Shown here one piece after another: positions 16,901 through 19,900 of a DNA stretch of 64,000 nucleotides; the first letter of the stretch is position 1; the number at the start of each line of letters is the position of its first letter. The stretch covers positions 1,488,001 to 1,552,000 of the forward strand of contig NC_134682.1 in assembly GCF_024713945.1 (NCBI RefSeq), given 5' to 3'. The notes beneath the pieces are model-generated. The model saw only the letters and a list, made by a program, of their open reading frames with translations. It was not told where the DNA came from and searched no databases. The stretch is from Dermatophagoides farinae. Its lineage: Eukaryota; Arthropoda; Arachnida; Sarcoptiformes; Pyroglyphidae. The position numbers and the translations under genes were made by a program.

Positions 16901-19900
16901 TAATTGAAACAAAAAAAAAAACAAACAGGTGCCGCTGAAAAAAGTTCAAAACATGGTGCTGAAGACAAAGCAAATAACATCATAATGGCAATGAAAGAAC
17001 GAATGAAAATTCGTGAACGTGAAAAGCCTGAAATATTTGAAATGATAAGGTTTTCATTTTCATTCCAATTCTATATTATTTTATTGCTTATTATTAGTGA
17101 TTATTTCTATATTTAGAGATAGATGGATAAATAGATAGATAGATCGTTGTTTTTTGTTTGCTTTGAAAAAAAATCAAGTGAGCTTTATTTTTGATTTTTA
17201 AAAAAATTCAATTTTGATCACACAACAAATTGGTAAAAATGAAAGCAAAGTAAAGCGGATTTTGTTTTTTTGTCTCCTCACTACTATTGCGCTTTCGTGA
17301 ACATTTTCGAACCCTTTTTTGAAAGAAAGTAGAGAAAAAAAACATATAGATAGATTATAAATAATTGTTTATTTTTATTTGAAAAATTTTCTTTTTCGAA
17401 ACAAAAAAAAAACAAACAAACAAACAGGGATGTGTTCGGTGTGGATCAAAAAAGCCACTCTGGACATATGAAAGCCGTCAAACAAAGCGTTCTTGATGGC
17501 ACATCAAAATGGTCAGCTAAAATTGCCATTACCGGTAGGTCCTCACACACACACACCATCGATCACCCTCCTCATCCTTTATATTTACATTATCCGATTC
17601 CTAAATGGTTTATAAGCCATTCCATTCTATAACAACAACAACAACATATGAATTTCGAATTAAAAATTCCTTACCATCGATTGATGATGATGATGATGAT
17701 GATAAAATGATTCAATCAAATCACATTCACTAATTAAATTATTTTTGGCAAAAATAAAATAAAAAAAATTTTAAATGCACAATACCCAATTCACCAACAT
17801 TGATTAACTGATAACGTGATGAATTGAATTGAAATGAAATTTCATTTTTTTGCACCAAAAAAAAAACAAACAAAAATTACGTCAGTTTGTGCTATATTTG
17901 ATTCACTTTTGCTCACTATTTTTTTTTTATTATTTGTAGTTTTTCTGCCAATTCTTTTTTTTCTAGTCACTCTATAATCGCATTTTCTTATTTTTCATTA
18001 TTTGCTAATGCTTTTTTGATTCATCATTATTAACTGACAAAACAAACAAACAAATTGTCTGATGTCATTTTTTTCCATTCTATTTTATCTTTTTTTTTTC
18101 ATTCTCTTTTTTCCGATTCTTGAATTGAATAATAATAATAATGATGATGTTGATGATGATATATTAATAATTGATAAACAAAAAAATCCAATAACCTCTG
18201 CTACTACTGCTACTAACGAAAAAAAAAACAAAAAAAAAATACTAAACTTTTTAAAAACAAACTAAAAACTAAAAAAAAAAAATATCCAGAGACGTTTTTG
18301 CTGTTGAACCTGCATTACATATTGATGAAATGCAAAAAGCCGAACAGGTGATGCTTGATAGCAACTGGTCGGCTAAAATCACCATCACAGGCATGTATAT
18401 ATTATATATATTATGTAACCTAATGTCAATTCAAAATTTCATTCATTAATTTGAACACATTCATATATTATTACATTTTCTTTTCTTTCCTATCCATATA
18501 AATAATTACGATTCCGTTTCTTTAACTCTTTCAATAATTCATCCACTTCCATCCCAATAATGATATTTGAAAATATATATATTTTTTTTCTCTCTCTCAC
18601 ATTCATTCAATTCTTTCATTCATACAAAAATAGTGATTTGTGCACAAGGTTTAATAGCTAAAGATAAAAGCGGTACTAGTGATCCATATGTAACAACACA
18701 GGTTGGCAAAGTTAAAAAACGTACCCGTACAGTGCCACAAGATTTGAATCCTGTTTGGAATGAAAAATTCTATTTTGAATGCCATAATTCAAGTGATCGT
18801 ATCAAGGTACGTGTATGGGATGAAGATAATGATTTGAAATCAAAACTTCGACAAAAATTAACACGAGAATCGGATGATTTTCTTGGCCAAACAATCATCG
18901 AAGTTCGTACGTTGAGCGGTGAAATGGATGTATGGTATAATCTTGAAAAACGTACTGATAAATCTGCCGTATCCGGTGCCATACGTCTGCATATTAGTGT
19001 TGAAATTAAAGGTGAAGAAAAAGTAGCACCATATCATGTACAATACACTTGCCTACATGAGGTTAGTTTTTGAAGGAAAAAAAATCTCATTTTTAATTTC
19101 AATGTGTTGCGATTGTCATAGAATCTCTTCCATTATTTGTGTGAGACCGTCCATAGTGGTTCCGTTAAACTTCCAGATTATAAAGGCGTAAGTAGAATTG
19201 AAAATGATTTTCTGTGAATATTTTCAATTTAAAAATTCATAATCATACACACAGGATGATGCATGGAAAGTTTATTTCGATAATCCGGCCCGTGAAGTTG
19301 TGGATGAATTTGCTATGCGTTATGGAATTGAATCAATCTATCAAGCGATGACGTAATTTGCATATTAACATTATTATTATTGTTGTTTTTTTCACATCTA
19401 ATCATTTTTTTTCAATTATCATCATTAGACATTTTCATTGTTTATCAACCAAATATCTTTGTCAAGGTGTACCAGCGGTTATGAGTACACTATTGGCCAA
19501 TATCAATGCCTATTATGCCCACACATCAGCATCGTCCAATGTGTCGGCTAGTGATCGTTTTGCTGCTTCCAATTTTGGAGTAATTTATTGATGATTGATT
19601 TTTGAATATATCGATTTCATGTTTTGTTTTTGTTTTTTTTATTTACAGAAAGAAAAATTCATCAAACTATTAGATCAATTGCATAATTCATTACGAATTG
19701 ATTTATCAATGTATAGAGTGAGTATATTATTGATGAACATTTATGATGAATGATCAATGGAATTTTTTTGACTATAATAAAACAGAATAATTTTCCTGCA
19801 TCATCACCTGAACGTTTACAAGATTTAAAATCTACTGTCGATCTATTAACAAGTATAACATTTTTCCGTATGAAAGTACAAGAATTATCTAGTCCACCAC

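Follow-up and report, generated by a model that had tools for sequence, protein, structure and literature searches.

In the genomic stretch analyzed here (64,000 nucleotides of Dermatophagoides farinae, hereafter called the window), two neighboring exons of an unc-13 gene, designated a and b, probably form a tandem-duplicated, regulated, and mutually exclusive pair, which would tune the lipid- and calcium-sensing C1-C2B module of the encoded synaptic release protein, with exon a as the default version. Judged from the sequence, we assign this reading a probability of about 0.7.

The gene was recognized as a member of the UNC-13/Munc13 family by matches to Pfam and to PDB sequences, which placed the C1, C2B, and MUN domains in this order on the forward strand. 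The C1 domain is encoded by an exon at 16623..16842 (Pfam C1_1, E = 2.5e-14 on 16623-16841), whose splice sites were read from the sequence. A second exon, at 16929..17049, is shared by both isoforms, encodes the first part of the C1-C2B linker, and ends at the donor AAG/GTTTTC. It is followed by an intron (17050..17427), the default-like exon a (17428..17534; donor CCG/GTAGGT), a further intron (17535..18289), exon b (18290..18390), whose GC donor CAG/GCATGT occupies 18391..18396, an intron leading from b to the next exon (18391..18633), and the shared downstream exon with the C2B domain (18634..19061; Pfam C2, E = 8.1e-26 on isoform a, together with a match to Munc13-1 in PDB). Farther downstream, exons of the same gene on the forward strand matched the MUN domain (PF06292) at 19909..21846, which corresponds to 1507909-1509846 of the contig (C6), and Pfam gave a partial C2 match within 21986-22180. 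A candidate reading frame for the N-terminus, at 11822-12133, showed no Pfam match. As forward-strand neighbors, Pfam matches to Cohesin_load (5261-5551, upstream) and to Ipi1_N (23709-24878, downstream) were observed.

A preliminary description of this DNA had proposed the two exons with their coordinates, their lengths (107 nt for a and 101 nt for b), entry in phase 2 and exit in phase 1, and the GC donor of the second exon, and our reading reproduced all of these. With either exon, the reading frame runs from a 13-letter stretch of protein (not shown) through RDVF...IT to VICAQGL, and isoforms a and b are each free of stops through the C2B exon. Skipping of both exons led to a stop 9 residues past the upstream exon (TAA at 18659-18661, hand count), and joining of a to b led to a stop within exon b (TGA at 18349-18351, hand count), indicating that transcripts with both exons or with neither would be unproductive. 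Such transcripts would presumably be destroyed by nonsense-mediated decay, leaving one version per protein. The idea that the frame itself enforces an exclusive choice therefore holds for usable protein, but it says nothing on whether the spliceosome never joins both exons. Mutually exclusive duplicated exons have been recognized by neighboring position, similar length, equal phases, and sequence homology in PMC3228551, whose main text does not name unc-13. Exons a and b show these four features, the homology amounting to 17 identical residues out of 33 aligned.

The similarity of exon b to exon a was then measured against chance. Across the window, every phase-compatible candidate of 47-167 nt that lacked a stop and was bounded by AG and by GT or GC was scored against exon a (n = 2602; 1362 on the forward and 1240 on the reverse strand). 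Apart from those overlapping exon a itself, the only candidates scoring above 10 started at 18290, with scores of 72 (GC donor), 64 (GT 24 nt farther on), and 31 (truncated), and the next unrelated candidate scored 10, the best on the reverse strand being 7. A score of 72 was reached by 0 of 20,000 shuffled versions of exon b, and no third exon of this kind was found in the window by similarity to exon a. These results substantiate the proposal that exon b is an alternative version of exon a, that is, that phase-matched unc-13 exons between C1 and C2B were duplicated, the second one carrying a GC donor. The peptide of exon b, which had at first gone unmatched to a known isoform, now aligns over practically its full span (residues 2-34 of 34) with the corresponding segment of Munc13-1. 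By itself it gave a weak match (E = 0.091), and it was also placed within the full-length match of isoform b; among PDB sequences with E up to 10, its only hits were this a-like stretch of Munc13-1 and an unrelated aldolase. Both isoforms, a and b, align throughout with the Munc13-1 C1-C2B-MUN sequences in PDB (5ue8, 7t7c; 394.5 and 371.5 bits, respectively), and the mite gene likewise has C1, C2, and MUN domains.

The divergence between the two exons also bears on their history. Synonymous sites are saturated (pS 0.68), pN is 0.35, and 11 of the 17 identical residues have a changed codon. When 41 nucleotide changes were placed at random on exon a in a neutral simulation, 3581 of 20,000 products were stop-free, and 0 of 20,000 were stop-free with 17 identical residues. 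By these measures, exon b is a stretch that was retained as protein long after the duplication, because constraint at the protein level is seen despite saturated synonymous change; its present-day use is a separate matter. Exon a has 25 of 35 residues in common with rat Munc13-1 and 27 of 35 with a second unc-13 gene of the mite (described below). In a test of duplication timing, the identities of exon b were about equal throughout (17/33 to a, 16/33 to the second gene, and 17/33 to rat). Exon a would be the ancestral-like default and exon b the regulated alternative. The C2B exon was also used to scan bacterial/archaeal and viral contigs, which gave 84 and 11 pattern-matched stretches, respectively, and 0 confirmed relatives; since these collections consist of bacteria, archaea, and viruses, the result carries no inference on the conservation of exon b.

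The two introns around exon b are poor in AG. Together they hold 5 AG against 26 expected from composition, and 0 of 5000 shuffles were as low. All 5 lie in the intron between a and b (23.6 expected), and the intron after b has 0 AG in the 241 nt before its acceptor, where merely 3.0 are expected owing to a G content of 4%. GA was not depleted in either intron (34 vs. 23.6 expected and 4 vs. 3.0 expected, respectively), and the intron before a showed no depletion of AG (18 vs. 17.5 expected). This exon cluster contains three of the window's five longest forward-strand stretches without AG, namely 17967-18287 (321 nt), 17617-17883 (267 nt), and 18391-18631 (241 nt). The first, which is the second longest on that strand, directly precedes exon b and contains T-rich tracts, 14 matches to YTNAY as candidate branch points, and TACTAAC at 18211. 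Among the 12 acceptors compared, the AG-free zone measured 321 nt at b, 241 nt at the C2B exon, and 19-116 nt at the other ten, although many of those other introns are short; with an AG exclusion zone of at least 100 nt taken as the mark of a distant branch point, two of the ten (116 and 111 nt) also qualify. Moreover, AG is low window-wide, with a median of 0.63 of expectation on the forward strand and some other 1000-nt segments down to 0.28, and the probability of a 321-nt AG-free run was 0.077 under a Markov model of the a-b intron itself vs. 2e-5 under a model of the whole window. Human exons with an AG-free zone of at least 100 nt have been described as candidates for distant branch points and as more often alternatively spliced, and alternative exons of the alpha-tropomyosin and OGDH 4a/4b class are preceded by AG-free zones of 100-400 nt, as at exon b (passages of PMC1431707). 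The zones of 321 nt at exon b and 241 nt at the C2B exon suggest that their branch points are distant. Further long AG-free stretches on the forward strand were observed at 33402-33729 (328 nt) and 11182-11478 (297 nt), and these may indicate that other introns have distant branch points as well.

Donor strength was analyzed for the 12 donors of the gene that were read, using a generic score table and, as a second measure, the U1 duplex energy. By the table, scores ranged from -1.0 for the shared upstream donor AAG/GTTTTC, the lowest of the 12, to 11.1 for the exon a donor, with the GC donor of exon b in the mid-range at 5.0. In terms of U1 duplex energy, most donors were stronger than the upstream donor (-4.1) and the b donor (-4.5), with three others weaker still (-1.4, -1.7, and -2.4). 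The GC donor had been called weak, which is true of its letters but less so by the gene's own standard, since it outscores 5 of the remaining 11. As a candidate site of a GC-AG intron, it sits in a position that keeps the frame, restores the conserved strand ITIT-V-ICAQGL, and is the best frame-keeping site among the ten best GT/GC sites at 18300-18500. The Rbfox-type motif GCATG occurred once (at the b donor itself), as did TACTAAC, which includes the STAR-type motif ACTAAC, and these counts are too few to carry meaning. GC donors have been described as enriched among alternatively spliced genes (PMC2490688). With the GC donor, an upstream donor far from consensus, and the AG-free zones before b and the C2B exon, inclusion of exon b would need trans-acting factors.

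The same donors also admit a poison exon, in which b is spliced through a frame-shifting site or is joined to a, thereby lowering UNC-13 by nonsense-mediated decay. Two GT sites within b, at 18347 (9.1) and 18367 (6.6), outscore the GC donor and shift the frame. The former, CAG/GTGATG (GT at 18348), turns the first codon of the C2B exon into a stop, and the joined a-b transcript stops inside b as noted above. However, the part of b past 18347 includes the stretch best conserved as protein, 8 of the last 10 aligned codons being identical in residue (pN 0.18, pS 0.71). A poison exon has no need of a conserved protein stretch, so this conservation counts against it, and we regard a poison exon as unlikely.

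Alternatively, exon b might be a relic that formerly encoded protein and has been unused since its donor changed from GT to GC. A change of C to T at 18392 would yield CAG/GTATGT, and two other introns of the gene have GTATGT as their donor; furthermore, b alone deviates at 5 positions where exon a, the second gene, and rat agree. Against such decay, exon b has acquired neither a stop nor a frame change, its phases and the conserved strand are intact, and the AG depletion of the introns around it is still present, all of which leave a relic quite unlikely. The C at 18392 may itself be a single-base assembly error or a polymorphism.

The way in which exclusivity is achieved was also considered. 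The long AG-free zone before b might point to a steric clash, with insufficient distance between a branch point and the exon a donor as in alpha-tropomyosin, or to competing intron RNA structures as in Dscam. In alpha-tropomyosin and OGDH, whose exons 4a and 4b form an exclusive pair (passages of PMC7969005), exclusivity is enforced by a branch point close to the upstream donor, whereas the mite zone, which holds the candidate branch points, starts 432 nt past the donor of exon a. As for competing structures, a single-sequence test found that 23, 34, and 56 of 60 shuffles paired at least as strongly. With a zone this distant and no pairing above that of shuffles, both forms of this explanation are improbable, and exclusivity more likely stems from the frame combined with a regulated recognition of exon b. 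Finally, it is very improbable that b uses the GT at 18415 in place of the GC donor, because this GT, although the sole site farther downstream within the top-scoring ten that would also keep the frame (exon length 125), has a donor score of 1.4 vs. 5.0 and a similarity to a of 64 vs. 72, and would insert eight extra residues (GMYILYIL) into conserved C2B strand 1, which the GC donor restores as ITIT-V-ICAQ.

We also located a second, diverged unc-13 gene in the genome, on the minus strand of contig C2 at about 6188821-6192780 as far as examined. Its C2B exon is identical to that of the first gene in 129 of 142 residues (pN 0.07; pS 0.70, with synonymous sites saturated), and its linker exon is of the a type, with a length of 107 nt and the same phases. 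The introns flanking this linker exon are 53 and 58 nt long, which leaves no space for a b-type exon. When the b peptide was searched against the genome (62.4 Mb, 22 contigs) at E up to 10, the three candidates scored were b, exon a, and the second gene's a-type exon, with no further b exon. In keeping with a mite origin, the genome gave three matches above the cut-off to Blo-t-5, a Pfam family of mite allergens, compared with 0 in 14 control genomes. A third locus with a MUN domain was observed on the minus strand of contig C3 (1551606-1552537), which we take to be possibly CAPS/unc-31.

What the exchange would alter in the protein was examined through the domain boundary and the charges. In isoform b, the swapped exon extends to residue 73 and so overlaps the Pfam C2 match, whose first residue is 69. 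The exchange therefore affects the end of the linker together with the beginning of C2B, and the shared exon encodes the remainder of C2B. Thus, the earlier view that the two exons encode the C1-C2B linker is right as to the linker end, but the exons are not linker alone, as they include the first C2B residues. Exon b is two residues shorter than a. Before WSAK, the counts of K/R vs. D/E were 4/3 in a, 1/6 in b, 3/2 in the second gene, and 4/2 in rat, such that the linker charge ahead of C2B strand 1 changes from about +1 with a to -5 with b. Inclusion of b would thereby put an acidic version in place of the linker end and the beginning of C2B strand 1.

In the crystal structure of Munc13-1, the C1-C2B linker forms four helices within extensive contacts with H1, MUN, C1, and C2B, as described in PMC5344669. 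In C. elegans, a chimera lacking all the linkers, not just the segment considered here, lost the mutual inhibition of C1 and C2B in evoked release and showed a partial reduction in spontaneous release (PMC11991699). Within the C1-C2B region of Munc13-1, priming can be impaired by one single charge change, K603E, and evoked release can be raised by another, K720E (passages of PMC8648301). The authors of the crystal structure found in it no support for a direct inhibitory action of C1 and C2B on MUN and favored a cooperative binding to membranes in a defined orientation (PMC5344669). The swap could act by either of these two routes. We infer that exon b would shift the set point of the C1-C2B module. 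The direction of the effect is a guess, namely easier release from the basal state. It is possible, though doubtful, that the acidic b linker weakens the basal mutual inhibition of C1 and C2B and gives a priming protein with altered diacylglycerol and Ca2+ sensitivity, with the second gene locked in the a state and synaptic gain set by the choice of exon and of gene.

Exons 9 and 10 of let-2 in C. elegans are likewise an exclusive pair. Like mite exon b, intron 10 of let-2 has a GC 5′ splice site; the one in let-2 is weak, and regulated splicing could not do without it (Farrer 2002, cited in passages of PMC7242645). However, let-2 is a collagen gene whose developmental switch was shown by experiment, whereas the mite pair is proposed from sequence. 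In unc-13 of C. elegans, a separate 9-nt microexon encoding VLK, located between the CaM site and C1, is regulated by neuron type (passages of PMC12287369); it is likewise an instance of splicing in the regulatory part of UNC-13, but it brings three residues in or out before C1, whereas the mite pair exchanges homologous exons between C1 and C2B. In both mite unc-13 genes, the residues VLK directly follow SEL in one open exon (SELVLK; 16254-16326 of the window, and the minus strand for the second gene), so the 9-nt microexon seems to be fused into a larger exon in both.

Other accounts of unc-13 splicing are also available. An exon of fly unc-13 is named in a neuronal microexon program (passages of PMC8797185), and regulated splicing is known for the MUN loop (passages of PMC5344669). 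In addition, unc-13 is listed among the genes differentially spliced in LNv neurons, the exon being unspecified in the passages concerned (PMC6025963). The relevant passages of PMC12403152 name the isoforms Unc13A and Unc13B only, and in those of PMC12084633 unc-13 occurs in the reference list. No report of exclusive exons or of an exon exchange in the C1-C2B linker of unc-13 was found in the titles, abstract openings, and passages of the open-access literature searched, and a known insect counterpart of the pair is possible. Regulated splicing of unc-13 and regulation through GC donors are already known. New here are the AG-poor introns around b, but not before a, the turn of the linker charge by b, and the second unc-13 gene with an a-type exon only.

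The exon pair beside a second gene with only the a type offers a clean case of exon duplication alongside gene duplication. If the swap to exon b is real, this natural exchange of opposite charge would provide a ready-made probe of how the C1-C2B module is set. Through the choice between a and b, neurons of this mite could probably produce two release proteins that differ in their tuning.
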